5,759 bases of DNA from Anaerolineales bacterium (GTDB lineage: Bacteria > Chloroflexota > Anaerolineae > Promineifilales > Promineifilaceae): the NCBI GenBank assembly GCA_020432595.1, contig JAGQGA010000001.1, positions 12,127-17,885 on the forward strand, given 5' to 3'. The notes below the pieces were generated by a model. That model was not told the origin of the DNA, made no database searches, and was given only the letters and a program-made list of their open reading frames with translations. This document shows positions 3 to 5,172 of this stretch, one piece after another. Numbering within the stretch: the first letter of the stretch is position 1; each line of letters opens with the position of its first letter. Position numbers and translations under genes: made by a program.

Positions 3-479
3 GCATCTGGGGTAGAAATACGGCCGTTGCCTCAGCAAAAACAGCATGACCCTAACTGGCTCCACAATCTGTATGAGCTGGATTGGGCGTTGACCCAAGA
101 TGAACCGCAGCCCAGCCCACCAACCAAGCTCCCGTTAGAGCAGTATGTCAAAACGTTTCTTGACGACCCGAATGTGCTGGAAGAGGCATGGTTTGTGGCG
201 GTGGAAAACGGCCGTTATTTAGGCATGACCCAACTCTACCGCAAACCAAACAAGCCTAAGGAATACGGTACTGGCTTCACCGGCGTGGTTCGCAGCCATC
301 GGCGGCGCGGTCTAGCAACAGCGCTCAAAAGCTATGCCGTCGAATATGCCCAGCAGCAGGGCATTGAAACGCTACGCACGGGTAACGAAGAAAAGAACCC
401 GATGTATCAGCTAAATAAACGGTTAGGCTTTGTTGACTTAACAACGGAACTGGCCTATGAAAAGAGATTTGAGGCTTAA
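3..479 (+). CDS. GNAT family N-acetyltransferase, 5'-truncated by the window edge
   Basis: The visible 158 residues form a GNAT fold, which transfers an acetyl group from acetyl-CoA to an amine; the substrate is unknown. The acetyl-CoA loop is seen at visible residues 95-108 (GVVRSHRRRGLATA, matching R-x-x-G-x-A), and the C-terminal GNAT motif at about 128-143 (N..KNPMYQLNKRLGF). The first in-frame start-like codon is a TTG at 27, but the frame stays open to the left edge and encodes ASGVEIRP before it. 'VEIRPL' looks like the first beta-strand of a GNAT domain. The end resembles the second domain of tandem-GNAT proteins of about 300 residues, so I infer that the true start lies outside the window. 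The TAA stop is followed directly by the ATG of the next gene, so the two are probably translationally coupled. Family assignment is secure; the tandem architecture is inference. Confidence 0.85.
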   Translation, partial: ASGVEIRPLPQQKQHDPNWLHNLYELDWALTQDEPQPSPPTKLPLEQYVKTFLDDPNVLEEAWFVAVENGRYLGMTQLYRKPNKPKEYGTGFTGVVRSHRRRGLATALKSYAVEYAQQQGIETLRTGNEEKNPMYQLNKRLGFVDLTTELAYEKRFEA

Positions 480-1478
480 ATGAAACAAGAAATTCGAGAA
501 CGACTAAACGACGCTATTTTGCAGGAAGCGCGAGCGCGATATGGCCTTGAGGCTGGGCAGCTAGAGGCATTAGATGGCTTTGAGAGCTTTATCTACACGT
601 TTGCGCGGGATGGCGAACGCTATATCTTGCGGCTAGGGCATTCACAGCGGCGCAGTGAGGCACTGATTCGCGGCGAGGTGGATTGGATTAACTATCTGGC
701 GGAAAACGGGACATCAGTGGCGTGGGCGGTGCCATCGCCGCAGGGCAATTTGGTGGAACCCATTGCCGATGGGCATGGCGACCATTTTCTGGCGACGGCG
801 TTTGTCTATGCGCCGGGAGGCAGGGCGGCGTGGCCTATCGGTCATGATGTAGCGTTTTGCCGCAATTACGGCCGTTTATTGGGCAAAATGCACCGCCTCG
901 CCTCCACCTATCAACCGCGTGACCCCGGGGCAAAACGGCCGTTTTGGAACGACCCCGCCAACAACATCCAGCTTGCCCACATCTTGCCCACCAGCGACAG
1001 CGAAATCTTGGCAAAATCCGATGCCCTCATCGCCCACTTTGCCACCCTGCCCACCGACCCCGCCCACTTCGGCCTCATCCATCAGGACGCACACGGTGGC
1101 AACTTCCACGTAGATGACAGCGGCACCATCACCCTGTTCGACTTCGACGACTGCGCCTATATGTGGTACGCCAACGACGTGGCAATGGTGCTGTGTTACG
1201 CCAGCATGGGGTGGGATGATGGGCAGGCGTTTGTCAACACCTTTTTCCCGCCGTTTTTGGCTGGCTATCGGGAGGAGTGGGAGATAAACGGCCGTTGGCT
1301 GGCCGAGATCCCCCACTTTATGAAGCTGCGCGAACTAGACCTTTACGCCATCATCAACCGTGACTTCACCCCCGCACAAATTGCCGAAGATGGTTGGCTT
1401 AACCGTTTCATGAACGGCCGTCGGGAGAGACTGCTCCGGGATGTGCCGTTTCTGGATGTAGACCTTACTGGATTTTAG
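480..1478 (+). CDS. APH-family phosphotransferase (protein-kinase-like fold)
   Basis: The 332-residue product is a small-molecule or protein phosphotransferase of the APH/choline-kinase superfamily, using ATP in the cytoplasm. The catalytic loop is HQDAHGGN at 201-208, with D203 as catalytic base and N208 as metal ligand. DFD at 221-223 is the metal-binding (DFG-like) motif. GFESFIY at 33-39 is the nucleotide loop, YILRLG at 48-53 the strand that usually carries the ATP lysine (here Arg51), E60 or E66 the probable helix-C glutamate, and ATAFVYAPGG at 105-114 the hinge. Length is normal for the family. The ATG at 480 abuts the GNAT stop and has GAGG at 471-474, five bases upstream. Substrate cannot be read from sequence; a SrkA/YcbJ-like kinase or homoserine-kinase-II-like enzyme is possible. 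A resistance role is not supported beyond the pairing with an acetyltransferase. Its TAG stop lies inside the following repeat. Confidence 0.88.
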   Translation: MKQEIRERLNDAILQEARARYGLEAGQLEALDGFESFIYTFARDGERYILRLGHSQRRSEALIRGEVDWINYLAENGTSVAWAVPSPQGNLVEPIADGHGDHFLATAFVYAPGGRAAWPIGHDVAFCRNYGRLLGKMHRLASTYQPRDPGAKRPFWNDPANNIQLAHILPTSDSEILAKSDALIAHFATLPTDPAHFGLIHQDAHGGNFHVDDSGTITLFDFDDCAYMWYANDVAMVLCYASMGWDDGQAFVNTFFPPFLAGYREEWEINGRWLAEIPHFMKLRELDLYAIINRDFTPAQIAEDGWLNRFMNGRRERLLRDVPFLDVDLTGF

Positions 1479-1549
1479 TAATCGGTAATCAGTAATCGGT
1501 AATCAGTAGGTGTGTTTTACTGATTACCGATTACTGATTACTGTTTACC
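1477..1549. repeat. Heptamer-repeat long hairpin (24-bp perfect stem)
   Basis: The left arm is four tandem heptamers alternating AGTAATC and GGTAATC from 1477, then a partial fifth. The right arm carries the reverse complement (GATTACY units). Bases 1485-1508 pair perfectly with 1518-1541 around a 9-base loop (1509-1517). Pairing continues to about 1478/1548 with one G-U and one mismatch. The phosphotransferase stop codon (1476-1478) overlaps the left arm, and the small gene's ATG starts only eight bases after the pairing ends. No T-run follows on the + strand, so this is not a classic intrinsic terminator. It could protect mRNA ends, attenuate, or be a mobile repeat. The repeat structure is seen directly; its function is unknown. 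Confidence 0.9.
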
Positions 1550-1556
1550 ACACAAA

Positions 1557-1901
1557 ATGGCTGTTAACACAAAAGGAAAACGCAAAGTCAAAGTCGGCGG
1601 ACGTGACTACATTTGGTACGTCCAAACCAACGAAGGGCTGCCCGATGAGGGGTACCTAGACAAACTCGAACCAGAACGGTACCTCCACATCATCGCCACC
1701 AATAAAAAATTCATCGTCCATTACCGCATCCCGCAGCAAGGCGACGACCATGCCCTGCTGCGCGTAGAAGGGGAACAGTTCCCCCGCCAGCCCGGAGCCA
1801 AAGAAGTGGCCGTGCCGCGCTGGAAACATGACACCAACCATTTCCCCACGGCCGATTTTGTCCGCCGTCTCATTGGTTGGTGTATGAGTACGAAGGAATG
1901 A
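1557..1901 (+). CDS. Small conserved-looking hypothetical protein upstream of rsgA
   Basis: I do not recognise this 114-residue protein. It has a basic N-terminus (KGKRKVKVGGRDYIWYVQ), a central part that reads as beta-strands (YLHIIATNKKFIVHYRI, about 43-59), a charged proline-containing stretch and a likely C-terminal helix (FVRRLIGWCMS). It has no signal peptide or membrane segment and is probably cytoplasmic. The ATG at 1557 lies just downstream of the long hairpin, and no Shine-Dalgarno is evident. The TGA stop (1899-1901) overlaps the rsgA ATG as ATGA, which supports this being a real, translated gene coupled to rsgA. A role near ribosomes or RNA would be guesswork from context and basic charge only. 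Confidence 0.75.
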   Translation: MAVNTKGKRKVKVGGRDYIWYVQTNEGLPDEGYLDKLEPERYLHIIATNKKFIVHYRIPQQGDDHALLRVEGEQFPRQPGAKEVAVPRWKHDTNHFPTADFVRRLIGWCMSTKE

Positions 1902-3055
1902 GCAGAAAAAAACAGAAACAAAAACCCGGCAAGCGCAACATTCGCCACAACATTGCCGCCAACCAGGAAAAACACCGCTCCGACTGGCTGCCGCTCCAAC
2001 CTGACGAAGAAGGGCAGGTGGCGGATCGGCGCATTATGCGGCGGGATGAGCAAGACCGGCGGCTGGAAGTGGCCGAAGCCGCCACCGCCACCACGTTTGA
2101 GCCATTTGACGAATCGCTGTGGCAGCAAATGGCCGAGGCCAGCCCGTTTGAATTGGGGCTGGTGGTGGAGGTCAGTCGCGGGCTGGCGCGGGTAGATTTT
2201 GGCGATGAGATTTTGGTCTGCGACATTCGCGGCACGCTCATTGCCGAGGAAACGGGCTATACCAACATCGTGGCCGTGGGCGACCGCGCCCTGGTGAGCC
2301 GCCAAAGCTGGCGGCGTGGGCTGCTGGAAGAGGTGCTGCCCCGCCGCAGCGGCCTGGCGCGAGCCGACAGCTTTGACACCCATCTGCGCCAACTGCTGGT
2401 TGCCAACGTAGACCAACTGCTGATTGTGACGGCGTGGCGTGAACCGCAAATCTGGTTTCAGATGATTGACGAATATCTGATTGGCGGCATGAGGAACCAT
2501 TTGCAGGCGGTGATTTGCGTCAACAAGGTGGATTTAGCCGACCATGTGCTGGAGTGCCGCATGGCGATGCAACCATATGTAGAGATGGGGCATCGGGTGC
2601 TGTTTACCAGCACGATGACGGAGTATGGGCTGGAGGAACTACGCGAAACGCTGGCCGGCCGAACAACAGTCCTGGCGGGTTTATCGGGGGTAGGCAAATC
2701 ATCGCTGTTAACGGCCGTTGATCCCCACCTCGACCTCAAAACTGGCGAAGTCAGCAGCCTCAAAAGCCGCGAAGGCCGCCACACCACCACCCAGGCCGTG
2801 CTGCACCCGCTGACTGGCGGAGGCTACGTCATAGACACCCCTGGCATCAAGGACATGGGGCTGCTGGGGCTGTACCCAGAGGATTTGCTCGACTACTACC
2901 CCGAAGTGGCCGCCGTTTTGGGCAAATGTCGCTTCCGCAACTGCAGCCATGAGAACGAGCCGGGGTGTGCCGTGCAAACGGCCGTTTCCGACGGCCGCAT
3001 CCTCGAATGGCGTTTCCAAAACTACCAGAATCTGTACGACAAGCTGGCCGAATGA
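1898..3055 (+). CDS. rsgA: Ribosome small-subunit biogenesis GTPase RsgA
   Basis: RsgA (YjeQ/EngC) is a circularly permuted GTPase that binds the 30S subunit late in its maturation and is released on GTP hydrolysis. In the 385-residue product an OB-fold spans about 85-143. The G motifs are in permuted order: G4 NKVD (209-212), G1 GLSGVGKSS (261-269), switch RHTTT (294-298) and G3 DTPG (313-316). A C-terminal zinc site has C344, C349, H351 and C357. The ATG at 1898 is chosen because it overlaps the upstream stop (ATGA). AAGGA directly abuts it, closer than an ideal ribosome site, so translation may depend on coupling. An in-frame TTG at 1877 would add seven residues but is unlikely. The N-terminal 80 residues are unusually long and basic (SRKKQKQKPGKR), making the protein longer than the usual 300-350 residues. 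Confidence 0.96.
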   Translation: MSRKKQKQKPGKRNIRHNIAANQEKHRSDWLPLQPDEEGQVADRRIMRRDEQDRRLEVAEAATATTFEPFDESLWQQMAEASPFELGLVVEVSRGLARVDFGDEILVCDIRGTLIAEETGYTNIVAVGDRALVSRQSWRRGLLEEVLPRRSGLARADSFDTHLRQLLVANVDQLLIVTAWREPQIWFQMIDEYLIGGMRNHLQAVICVNKVDLADHVLECRMAMQPYVEMGHRVLFTSTMTEYGLEELRETLAGRTTVLAGLSGVGKSSLLTAVDPHLDLKTGEVSSLKSREGRHTTTQAVLHPLTGGGYVIDTPGIKDMGLLGLYPEDLLDYYPEVAAVLGKCRFRNCSHENEPGCAVQTAVSDGRILEWRFQNYQNLYDKLAE

Positions 3056-3069
3056 AGGAAGAGCTTCAA

Positions 3070-3143
3070 GAGATTAGAGATTAGAGATTGGAGATTGGAG
3101 GTTGTCAACCCTCATCAATCTCCAATCTCCAATCGCCAAACTC
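3070..3143. repeat. Heptamer-repeat hairpin between convergent genes
   Basis: Five tandem heptamers run from 3070 to 3104 (GAGATTA twice, GAGATTG twice, GAGGTTG). Inverted copies follow at 3116-3143 (CAATCTC twice, CAATCGC, CAAACTC). Bases 3086-3104 pair with 3116-3134, a 19-bp stem with one G-U pair and an 11-base loop. It fills the 91-nt gap between the stops of rsgA (+) and the aminotransferase (-). It could act as a bidirectional transcription end or mRNA-stabilising hairpin, but neither strand has the T-run of a standard intrinsic terminator. Confidence 0.88.
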
Positions 3144-3146
3144 TCA

Positions 3147-4484
3147 CTACGCCACCGTTTGCAACACCCCACGAACGGCCGTTACAAACCTATCCACCAA
3201 CTCCTCCATCTCCGTTTGCGTGATGTTGTAGGGGGGTGCCAAAATCGCCGCATCGCCGTGAACGCCGTCAATGATGCCGCCGACCGGGTAACAAATTAGA
3301 CCCGCGTCCAGCGTGGCAGCGCGAATGCAGGCGGCAAGCTGGTGGGTGGGGGAAAACGGCCGTTTTTCCCCCTTATCTGCCACAAACTCCACCCCAATAA
3401 AAAAGCCCCGTCCGCGAATGTCGCCCACATATGGGTGGTCGCCCAACTCTGCCCGCAGCGTTGCCTGCAGCCACTCTCCTTCCCGCGCCACCTTCGCCAC
3501 CAGCCCCTCCCGTTCCACGATCTGCTGCACCGCCACCGCCGCCGCGCACGCCGTCGAGTGGCCGGTGAAGGTATGTCCCGTCATCAAATCCCCGTGCGCG
3601 GTAAAAATCGGCTCGGCCAGCTTGTGGTGGTAAATCGCCGCCCCCAGCGGAATATAGCCTGCCCCCAGCCCCTTCGCCACCGTCATAATGTCGGGTTCCA
3701 CCCCGTCATGCCCCAACGCCCGCCACGTTCCCGACCGCCCCGAACCACACATCACTTCGTCGGCAATCATGACCACACCGTAGCGGTCACACACCGCCCG
3801 CATTCGCTGTGCGTAGCCCGGCGGTGCCGGAACCACGCCACCCGCTGCCCCCACAATCGGCTCAAAGACAAAGGCACAAACCGTTTCCGCCCCCAGCCGC
3901 AAAATTTCCTGCTCCAGTTCGTTGGCACAAAAATCGGCGATCTCGGCGACGCTCAATCCCTCAGGTGGGCGATAAGCGTTAGCCGGGCTGACAAAACTCA
4001 CATCCAGCAAGCTTCCGGCAAACATCGCCCGCCGCTTGGGATAACCCGATACCGACAGCGCCCCCAGCGAATTGCCGTGATACGATTGTTGGCGGGCAAT
4101 AAAGCGGGTGCGCTTGGTCTGCCCAATTGCCTGCTGATATTGCAGCGCAATTTTCAACGCCGACTCCATCGCCTCGGAGCCACTGCCCACAAACAGCATA
4201 TGCCGCAGCCCGCCGCCGCACAAACGGCCGATCATTTCCTGTAGCTGCTCCAGCGGGTCGCTGGTGAAGTTGTAGCGGTAGCCGTGGGCAAACTGCGCCA
4301 TCTGCCGCGTCACGGCCGCGTTGACCTCCTCATTACCGTGGCCGATGGCAAAAACGGCCGGCCCGCCGGAAGCATCAAAATATTGCTTGCCCTCGGTGTC
4401 ATACAGATACACCCCTTTGGCCCAGGCCACCTTGGGCAACGCCTGGGTTGAAAACAGATATTTTTCTTGGTTAGTTGTAGCCAT
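3147..4484 (-). CDS. Class III PLP-dependent aminotransferase
   Basis: This 445-residue cytoplasmic enzyme moves an amino group between an amine or omega-amino acid and a keto acid using pyridoxal phosphate. Class III (ornithine/BioA-like) marks are all present: SGSEA (101-105) for phosphate binding, YHG (135-137) stacking on the ring, FEP with E208, ADEV with D242 contacting the pyridine nitrogen, VAKGLG with K271 as the Schiff-base lysine, GHTFTGHS (303-310), and DIRGRGFFIGVEF (355-367). Length is typical. The ATG at 4484 has AGAGG at the right distance and agrees with the common N-terminus of the family. A TTG at 4517 would overlap the upstream gene and is rejected. It is last in a run of three - strand genes, seven bases after the membrane gene's stop. 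The amine-oxidase neighbour suggests amine or amino-acid breakdown; substrate is not determinable. Confidence 0.93.
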   Translation of the reverse strand: MATTNQEKYLFSTQALPKVAWAKGVYLYDTEGKQYFDASGGPAVFAIGHGNEEVNAAVTRQMAQFAHGYRYNFTSDPLEQLQEMIGRLCGGGLRHMLFVGSGSEAMESALKIALQYQQAIGQTKRTRFIARQQSYHGNSLGALSVSGYPKRRAMFAGSLLDVSFVSPANAYRPPEGLSVAEIADFCANELEQEILRLGAETVCAFVFEPIVGAAGGVVPAPPGYAQRMRAVCDRYGVVMIADEVMCGSGRSGTWRALGHDGVEPDIMTVAKGLGAGYIPLGAAIYHHKLAEPIFTAHGDLMTGHTFTGHSTACAAAVAVQQIVEREGLVAKVAREGEWLQATLRAELGDHPYVGDIRGRGFFIGVEFVADKGEKRPFSPTHQLAACIRAATLDAGLICYPVGGIIDGVHGDAAILAPPYNITQTEMEELVDRFVTAVRGVLQTVA

Positions 4485-4488
4485 AAAG

Positions 4489-4493
4489 CCTCT
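4489..4493 (-). promoter_or_regulatory. Ribosome binding site of the aminotransferase gene
   Basis: AGAGG on the - strand lies four bases before the ATG at 4484 and overlaps the TAG stop of the membrane protein gene. It decides the start codon and suggests coupled translation. Confidence 0.6.
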
Positions 4494-5172
4494 AATGTTT
4501 GAACAGCGCGACCCCAAACCAGATAGCCCAAATTGGCCCCAGCAAAATGTTTGCCATCAGCCCAATCAGGCTAAGTGATGCAATGTTGAACAGATTACCG
4601 AGCGTGTTGAGCAGGAGGAACACGCCAATAACCACAGCAAAGATTCCCAGTCCGCGCCGCTTGGGACGCAGCAGGCTGCCCATTCCCCAAAACCAAATGC
4701 TTCCGGCCAAGTTCTGCGCCACGCCGTGCAGCCCGGCCTCGGCAACGGCCGTTACCAGTTGGAAGTTGGCGACGAGGATGGGCTGGTTAACGGCCGTTCC
4801 TGCCGCATACTCCTCCATTAACATCGGCCACGTCGCCGCCAAAATAGCCGATCCCGCCGCCCCCAGCAAGATGTAGATAAACCCACTTGCCGTAAACAGC
4901 CGGGCAAAATCTGGCTGAGTAGGTTTTGTCCATTGGTAAAGCAGCAATGCCAGCGGCAACATAAACAAATAGTTGCCCACTATGTTGAGCCAATAGCTCC
5001 AGCGAATAAACCCCGCCGCCGCTGTTCCCGCTGCAATCAGCGAGGAACTATCAGAAAACACGTCAAAATCATAGTTCACCCCAGCCAACCCTACCACCAA
5101 ACTGAGTAGGGCAGCCAGACCGGCGATGATGGCAAGAACGGCCGTTAATCGCTGAAAAGACCCCAACCTCAT
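4492..5172 (-). CDS. DUF4386-like six-helix integral membrane protein
   Basis: This 226-residue hydrophobic protein has about six predicted membrane helices by eye: 9-31, 59-80, 92-113, 150-168, 174-195 and 198-220. A short basic N-terminus (MRLGSFQR) precedes the first helix, and a basic turn LLRPKRRG (167-174) sits between helices 4 and 5. The pattern and wording (e.g. NIVGNYLFMLPLALLLYQW, LNTLGNLF) resemble the DUF4386 family, whose function is not established; this match is from memory and not searched. The ATG at 5172 is preferred over a GTG at 5190, because a strong AAGGAGG lies five bases upstream and the GTG would overlap the preceding stop. It sits between the amine oxidase (14-nt gap) and the aminotransferase (7-nt gap). 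A transport or membrane-associated role for the pathway is possible but unproven. It carries three exact copies of the AACGGCCGTT palindrome, the most of any gene here. Confidence 0.82.
   Translation of the reverse strand: MRLGSFQRLTAVLAIIAGLAALLSLVVGLAGVNYDFDVFSDSSSLIAAGTAAAGFIRWSYWLNIVGNYLFMLPLALLLYQWTKPTQPDFARLFTASGFIYILLGAAGSAILAATWPMLMEEYAAGTAVNQPILVANFQLVTAVAEAGLHGVAQNLAGSIWFWGMGSLLRPKRRGLGIFAVVIGVFLLLNTLGNLFNIASLSLIGLMANILLGPIWAIWFGVALFKH

Follow-up and report, generated by a model that had tools for sequence, protein, structure and literature searches.

What is a ten-base palindrome, repeated ten times, doing in five unrelated genes of a Chloroflexota genome? This question is raised by a 5,759-nucleotide stretch of DNA from an Anaerolineales bacterium (GCA_020432595.1, contig JAGQGA010000001.1, positions 12,127 to 17,885), which as a whole is called the window below. 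It contains ten exact copies of AACGGCCGTT, whereas dinucleotide shuffles have a mean of 0.01 and none of 200 reaches ten, and five further one-mismatch versions, all with CGGCCG intact. The exact copies are spread over genes for a GNAT acetyltransferase, an APH-family protein, the GTPase RsgA, a class-III aminotransferase and a DUF4386 protein, which lie on both strands, and the readings of the copies as NGR, KRPF or TAV match the translations. The number of exact copies, their places, their spread over five unrelated genes and these readings are as given by a preceding sequence-only reading of the window. The expectation from Markov models of the window itself is 0.08 copies at third order and 0.59 at fourth order, the latter model being built from words which the motif itself supplies. 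We suggest, with a probability of roughly 0.47, that the copies of the palindrome, spread over the whole genome, are bound by a protein of one Chloroflexota family that reads DNA in a sequence-specific manner.

The RsgA protein of the window has counterparts of 60% and 61% identity in two metagenome-assembled genomes (MAGs), Anaerolineae IP29b_bin.94 (G001) and Ardenticatenaceae CFX1 (G002), with G001 falling within the 52-genome family of G002. The excess is not confined to the window, as these two genomes hold 3,716 and 669 copies of AACGGCCGTT, the same word read backwards occurring 6 and 34 times. The sequence-only reading took the 10-mer as the unit; it is indeed a real sub-dialect, to which 3,716 of the 6,919 sites of G001 belong, but the minimal unit is the 8-mer ACGGCCGT, with 13 copies in the window, and the constant part of most dialects is CGGCCG. 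In samples of three relatives (G300, G321 and G318; 200, 120 and 80 kb) ACGGCCGT has a density of 2.40, 2.04 and 1.48 per kb and a ratio of observed to third-order expected copies (O/E) of 27.1, 21.4 and 25.9. These ratios of 21-27 and the high whole-genome counts, which are neither near Markov expectation nor limited to the window, bear out the earlier claim of a DNA-level repeat of the type of the cyanobacterial highly iterated palindrome (HIP). In a class sample of 298 genomes (17 family members and 281 others) more than 1,000 copies of ACGGCCGT are found in 11 genomes, all of which belong to the family, and the highest count among the 281 others is 430. Within the family, 31 of the 52 genomes exceed 1,000 copies (range 1,189-15,176). 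Six genomes of the class sample (G021, G053, G126, G157, G244, G250) have no ACGGCCGT at all in 3.3-5.5 Mb, as if it were avoided, with 15-247 copies of the reversed control.

The family genomes were sorted by us from the counts of three 8-mers, other motifs being sought in samples only. ACGGCCGT dominates in 29 of the 52 (2,887-15,176 copies), the least pure being G283 with 2,982 versus 925 and 797. Two genomes use TCGGCCGA (G303 with 9,414 copies and G096 with 7,668) and one uses GCGGCCGC (G183, 12,040 copies versus 2 of the control). A relaxed dialect, CGGCCG with any outer base, is found in five genomes (G153, G206, G331, G332, G333); the first-order O/E of CGGCCG is 11.1 in G153, 12.8 in G331, 11.4 in G332 and 6.4 in G206, and 2.8, 3.0 and 1.4 in the motif-poor G069, G116 and G313. 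A further genome, G312, has 3,665 copies of TGCCGGCA, which had been counted there as reversed control; in its contigs C1-C7 (L035-L041) no other palindromic 8-mer is as strongly over-represented (51 in 52 kb), and ACGGCCGT is almost absent from the genome (14 copies). The other 14 genomes show no obvious motif among those counted. On an rpoB tree made by a quick method for 40 of the 52 genomes (40 of the 47 with an rpoB match, G153 and G206 being lumped with the genomes of no or weak motif), the five groups require 8 label changes compared with 14.3 in shuffles; thus the motif type is inherited but switches. In G153 all three reversed control 8-mers, each of which contains GCCGGC, are nearly absent (4, 2 and 2 copies in 4.1 Mb).

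Sites keep their places. The sequence-only reading had pointed to positional conservation between close relatives as a check, and it turned out to lie well above local 8-mer identity. Across 14 alignments of genome pairs, each 10.6 to 36 kb long and with some genomes in more than one pair, the fraction of sites kept is 0.83-0.98 at 83-92% DNA identity versus 0.28-0.56 expected from local 8-mer identity, and 0.56-0.68 at 74% identity versus 0.11-0.14. Between G300 and G236, 122 of 139 site comparisons are kept (54.0 expected), between G302 and G002 38 of 56 sites (7.5 expected), and three less overlapping genome pairs keep 168 of 208. Conservation in the 14 alignments also exceeds that of other, 6-bp palindromes. 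The rpoB and fusA genes agree, with about four sites per genome, so that these comparisons repeat few sites.

Within the sampled relatives G300, G321 and G318 the spacing of sites is near geometric, with long gaps in excess in G321 and G318; it is more even in G096 (coefficient of variation 0.75). Intergenic DNA holds 8%, 15% and 7% of the sites and makes up 10%, 12% and 8% of the sequence, and the sites occupy all three reading frames, most often as TAV, then as DGR/NGR/HGR/YGR and then as xRPx. A role as bidirectional terminators was rejected, as the sites are mostly within genes. Hairpin or cruciform arms were likewise rejected, because the flanks have no consistent extra complementarity beyond composition (isolated z values of 3.0 and 3.3 occur at offsets 1 and 10 for ACGGCCGT). 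A spacing peak at 45-46 bp in G300 (32 pairs) was also set aside: the 8 of these that are among the pairs listed all come from one tandem repeat. Contig C12 of this genome (L112) carries at about 159,300-159,800 a tandem repeat with one site per unit, 44-46 bp apart.

Outside the 8-mer, G occupies positions -3 and -4 in 47% and 54% of 1,712 half-sites, and in the three relatives the left flank is a mirror image of the right. The base at -1 varies by genome (A 0.60 in G318, C 0.36 in G300); the sites of the window and of G001 are of the A-at-minus-1 kind, and TCGGCCGA sites have A or T there in 98% of 392 half-sites. Among raw one-off copies, those with a changed outer base are the commonest in each of the five stretches measured. 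Against expectation, clear enrichment in ACGGCCGT genomes is confined to T (O/E 1.97-2.55 for TCGGCCGT, 0.90-1.25 for GCGGCCGT and 0.36-0.77 for CCGGCCGT), and no outer one-off is enriched in G096 (0.13-0.85).

The sites are surrounded by a mirror-symmetric halo of about 30 bp, with an excess of G on the 5′ side and of C on the 3′ side of each strand. The 5′ G-minus-C difference at 7-12 bp amounts to +0.162 for ACGGCCGT (1,712 half-sites), +0.151 for TCGGCCGA (392), +0.127 for GCGGCCGC (154) and +0.170 for TGCCGGCA (102). At 31-42 bp it is down to +0.014 to +0.044 for the four palindromes, with TCGGCCGA still at +0.063 at 43-60 bp. Eight control palindromes have no halo at 7-12 bp (between -0.031 and +0.029), and neither has CGGCCG in six motif-poor genome sets at 7-18 bp (+0.008 and -0.008, standard error (se) 0.010, 994 half-sites), where the value at 19-30 bp is +0.022 (se 0.007). 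Four relaxed genomes pooled with G283 show a weak halo of +0.037 (se 0.008; 1,272 half-sites). The 24 half-sites of the window have the same sign, +0.083 (se 0.066) at 7-12 bp and +0.319 (se 0.067) at 13-18 bp. At fourfold-degenerate positions 7-24 bp away from 1,119 coding sites, read in the gene's own direction, G and C have frequencies of 0.52 and 0.22 on the 5′ side and of 0.24 and 0.52 on the 3′ side, compared with a background of 0.37 and 0.38; at 110 intergenic sites the halo is +0.093. To our knowledge, and within a limited literature search, no halo of this kind has been described for a short site before.

At 7-18 bp, conserved sites have a larger halo (+0.181, se 0.019) than unshared ones (+0.089, se 0.027). 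Orthologous places that lack the site at unshared positions nevertheless have a skew of +0.065 (se 0.024), so the halo may be either cause or effect. In a first count, based on overlapping genome pairs, the skew at 7-12 bp had been +0.058 in genomes with the site and +0.001 in those lacking it; the idea that the halo is a sequel of the site was dropped on the less overlapping pairs. Divergence from 5 bp outward is 0.104-0.142, hardly above the 0.124-0.138 found at 46-160 bp, and is clearly higher (0.171) at the two bases next to the sites; the flanks of conserved control palindromes diverge less (0.082-0.111).

Viral DNA carries the palindrome as well. IMG/VR was scanned for clustered ACGGCCGT sites, which gave 14 and 25 stretches, control palindromes in pair form giving 13 and 10. 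Pair matches alone are thus about twice the controls (25 stretches versus 13 and 10), and it is the density within loci that sets them apart. Among loci of at least 3 kb, where two loci found by both scans were counted once and several come from one contig, 4 of 13 and 8 of 19 have more than one ACGGCCGT per kb (12 of 32 pooled), as opposed to 0 of 11 and 0 of 10 (0 of 21 pooled) fetched with two control palindromes. At least five sites are present in 9 of 13 and 11 of 19 loci, some of them GC-rich with exactly five, and in 0 of 11 and 0 of 10 control loci. The densest of these loci have 3.72 (L203), 3.52 (L209), 3.19 (L202) and 2.98 (L216) sites per kb. Sites lie inside phage-like genes: in L209 five in the portal gene, nine in the head maturation protease, two in the terminase and none in the major head protein gene, in L232 two in the tape measure gene, and in L222 two in the portal and five in the head protease gene. 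L203 has antirepressor and ParA-like genes, and 10 of 30 viral-locus proteins scanned have no PHROG match. Viral sites keep the G at -3 and -4 (0.46 and 0.37 of 688 half-sites) and are without halo (+0.014, se 0.011, at 7-12 bp; 742 half-sites). One locus, L242, speaks the other dialect with 11 copies of TCGGCCGA in 14.7 kb and no ACGGCCGT; it is the one among six loci of the TCGGCCGA search with at least five copies. Phages of the GCGGCCGC dialect were not accepted: those listed are GC-rich loci, with an O/E of at most 4.5 in the 12 densest. Taken together, the conserved positions and the occurrence inside viral structural genes speak for a site that is itself beneficial rather than one that accumulates passively.

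What we observe is the abundance, the dialects, the conservation, the viral presence, the halo and the lack of a cytosine methyltransferase family shared by the motif-rich genomes among the two searched; a single protein that reads the palindrome, its identity and its role are inferred. The reader would recognise the symmetric core CGGCCG. In most lineages it would also require one particular outer pair (A..T, T..A or G..C), and for ACGGCCGT genomes a weak preference for GG at the third and fourth base beyond the 8-mer might be added, so that the site would there roughly be GGnnACGGCCGTnnCC. Selection at the DNA level would preserve the sites where they are, whatever the gene or frame. The protein would act on any DNA in the cell, and phages living there would therefore carry sites, too. 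Its likeliest use may be a signal for 'this is our DNA' or for genome maintenance, such as nuclease sparing, repair, or nucleoid and segregation handling. In a bolder form, which we regard as doubtful, the palindrome would be a methylation-independent 'self' code: a protein of the family would read it on all cell DNA, the lineage dialects around CGGCCG would be mutually exclusive, phages would adopt their host's dialect, and the reader, by acting over long times, would print the strand-asymmetric halo on the chromosome and not on phage DNA.

Several observations weigh against a dedicated reader. TGCCGGCA of G312 lacks the CGGCCG core and is an exception to the dialect rule. As 14 of the 52 family genomes show none of the counted motifs, the function is dispensable or replaced. 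The viral loci were fetched for clustered sites, so that the choice itself accounts for A at -1 and for some of the density; several share one contig, the motif is the only pointer to their hosts, and they may be prophages. The recogniser was not found among the few gene families tested, in MAGs that may be incomplete. Of DndC, AddAB-type proteins and ComEC, none tracks the motif across the 52 genomes. ComEC is encoded in 47 of them, motif-rich and motif-poor alike, so that DNA uptake may still be involved. DndC exceeds the cut-off in just 5 of the 52 genomes, and Dnd phosphorothioation was rejected.

Among the rival explanations, one follows the model for HIP (Elhai 2015, PMC4390886): an orphan cytosine methyltransferase would mark CGGCCG, and methylation-directed mismatch repair would make and keep the sites as a by-product. 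The motif has the form of HIP1, being a palindrome with about 1-2 copies per kb, outer-base one-offs as the commonest and alternate palindromes in relatives, and a putative methyltransferase able to modify them is described for all cyanobacterial genomes with highly over-represented sequences (PMC4390886); the same paper notes some genomes with over-represented HIP1 and no CGATCG methyltransferase. Adenine is missing from both CGGCCG and GCGGCCGC, which excludes N6-adenine enzymes as writers and means that base methylation at CGGCCG would be on cytosine. Of the two cytosine-methyltransferase families searched, PF00145 has matches in 24 of the 52 family genomes and in 15 of the 29 ACGGCCGT-dominant ones, being missing from the other 14, and PF01555 is common with up to 27 matches per genome. 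G302, G306 and G001 are without PF00145 and have PF01555 at E 4.6e-4, 6.2e-5 and 5.0e-4 only; G302 holds 14,867 sites and has one contig of 396 kb. In some MAGs missing contigs could hide a methyltransferase gene. The 28 PF00145 proteins clustered, which come from 30 loci retrieved and are a subset of all matches, scatter at 38% identity into 14 groups; even the largest is loose and unites 11 proteins encoded in 9 genomes. Neither the two families nor the clustering gives an enzyme present in all motif-rich genomes; this speaks against the methylase target proposed by the sequence-only reading, and we consider the explanation unlikely. Some family members have some 20 PF01555 matches or more (27 in G301, 24 in G300), compared with two in their relative G302, the better at E 4.6e-4.

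DUS and USS, the uptake signals of other bacteria, are directional and are not known to be palindromic. A palindromic uptake signal, with competent cells importing site-bearing DNA, spread of the site by drive and dialects isolating lineages, would fit the site density, the positional conservation and the wide presence of ComEC, and a conserved core with lineage dialects is known from the DNA uptake sequence (DUS) of the Neisseriaceae (PMC3630211). The unit counted here is a perfect palindrome, ComEC is found in motif-poor genomes as well and the dense sites in viral contigs would be left unexplained; thus the parallel to uptake signals drawn in the sequence-only reading is disfavoured, and we judge it quite improbable. 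Biased repair or gene conversion, in which a repair enzyme favours the site and lets it accumulate without benefit, appears at least as improbable. The halo would then be the imprint of short repair tracts; its maximum at third and fourfold-degenerate positions, its symmetry about the site regardless of gene direction, its larger size at conserved sites and its absence from viral loci fit well. This explanation is opposed by the divergence near sites, which is hardly above that at distant positions and is lower still around control palindromes, by the nearly equal skew in genomes without the site, by the weak halo of the relaxed genomes and by the sites within viral genes, which suggest a benefit. 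Chi sites, which act on RecBCD/AddAB, are over-represented, have a G-rich strand context, possibly mark self DNA and are not known to be palindromic. The Chloroflexota site shares the first three properties and, being palindromic, might halt such a nuclease two-way; the G-rich strand lies 5′ of the site on both strands, and sites in viral loci fit a self/non-self role. Yet PF12705 (PDDEXK_1), matched in 45 of the 52 genomes, is mostly found in short proteins (up to about 300 residues), and motif-poor genomes have such proteins as well. Long, AddB-like proteins of about 950 residues or more are sporadic in the family (G303, G321, G329, G331, G332, G333 and G153, with weak matches in G246 and G316). 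RecC and RecD were not searched for, and a Chi-like function seems very improbable to us.

Compared with HIP1, the Chloroflexota palindrome is likewise short and GC-rich (HIP1 has 0.38-2.05 copies per kb in the plasmid stretches measured here), has palindromic extensions in some genomes and one-offs biased to outer positions, and is replaced by other palindromes in some relatives, here TCGGCCGA, GCGGCCGC and TGCCGGCA (PMC4390886). Both are over-represented genome-wide beyond short-word expectation, in genes and intergenic DNA and in all frames. The differences are the phylum, the core CGGCCG with its outer-pair dialects, the dense occurrence in some viral contigs and the halo. HIP1 is plentiful in one of three cyanophage stretches (20, 0 and 1 copies in 50, 41 and 50 kb), and it has no halo at 7-12 bp on plasmids, which were measured in place of chromosomes, of Synechococcus elongatus (-0.029, se 0.021; 94 sites), Trichormus variabilis (+0.018, se 0.019; 100) and Gloeothece (-0.006, se 0.030; 39); closer in, the T. 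variabilis plasmid has +0.180 at 1-2 bp and +0.074 at 3-6 bp. Because no matching methyltransferase common to the motif-rich genomes was found in the two families searched, we call the palindrome HIP-like in form and not a HIP in the sense of Elhai (2015). With the Neisseriaceae DUS (PMC3630211) it shares thousands of copies and lineage dialects around an invariant core, apart from TGCCGGCA in G312; it differs in being palindromic, in its occurrence in viral contigs and in having no known receptor. AACGGCCGTT is part of a regulator site listed for Thermus in PMC6651687. Our literature search, which had partial coverage, gave no link of iterated palindromes or CGGCCG with Chloroflexi, and publication elsewhere is possible.

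The sites of the window are listed in Table 1. Apart from the five genes that bear AACGGCCGTT, the window contains an unassigned 114-residue open reading frame and one end of a gene for a DAO-type oxidoreductase. Two intergenic inverted repeats noticed by eye at 1481-1550 and 3071-3135 (GTAATCGGTAATCAGTAA.., AGATTAGAGATTGGAGATTGG..) are possible terminators or small repeats.

Table 1 Palindromic sites in the window and the gene used as probe for relatives
Feature	Position	Strand	Context
ACGGCCGT site in TACGGCCGTT (differs from the 10-mer at one base)	20..27		GNAT gene
AACGGCCGTT	207..216		GNAT acetyltransferase gene, read as NGR
ACGGCCGT site in TACGGCCGTT	868..875		APH-family gene
AACGGCCGTT	934..943		APH-family (phosphotransferase) gene, read as KRPF
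AACGGCCGTT	1287..1296		APH-family gene, read as NGR
ACGGCCGT site in AACGGCCGTC	1414..1421		APH-family gene
RsgA-type GTPase gene, probe for relatives	1877..3055	+	Pfam PF03193, E 3.6e-48
AACGGCCGTT	2710..2719		RsgA GTPase gene, read as TAV
AACGGCCGTT	2977..2986		RsgA GTPase gene, read as TAV
AACGGCCGTT	3174..3183		class-III aminotransferase gene (minus strand), read as TAV
AACGGCCGTT	3355..3364		class-III aminotransferase gene (minus strand), read as KRPF
AACGGCCGTT	4744..4753		DUF4386 gene (minus strand), read as TAV
AACGGCCGTT	4789..4798		DUF4386 gene (minus strand), read as TAV
AACGGCCGTT	5137..5146		DUF4386 gene (minus strand), read as TAV

The purpose of HIP1 has long been open, and the model of PMC4390886 needs methyltransferases. 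The Chloroflexota palindrome is an independent, dense and dialect-switching case from another phylum, with no common methyltransferase family among the two searched and with viral carriers, and makes the methyltransferase model testable. In addition, the dialects of the family offer a comparative route to the reader, which would be a protein that differs between dialects in its DNA-contact residues, in step with the outer base pair.

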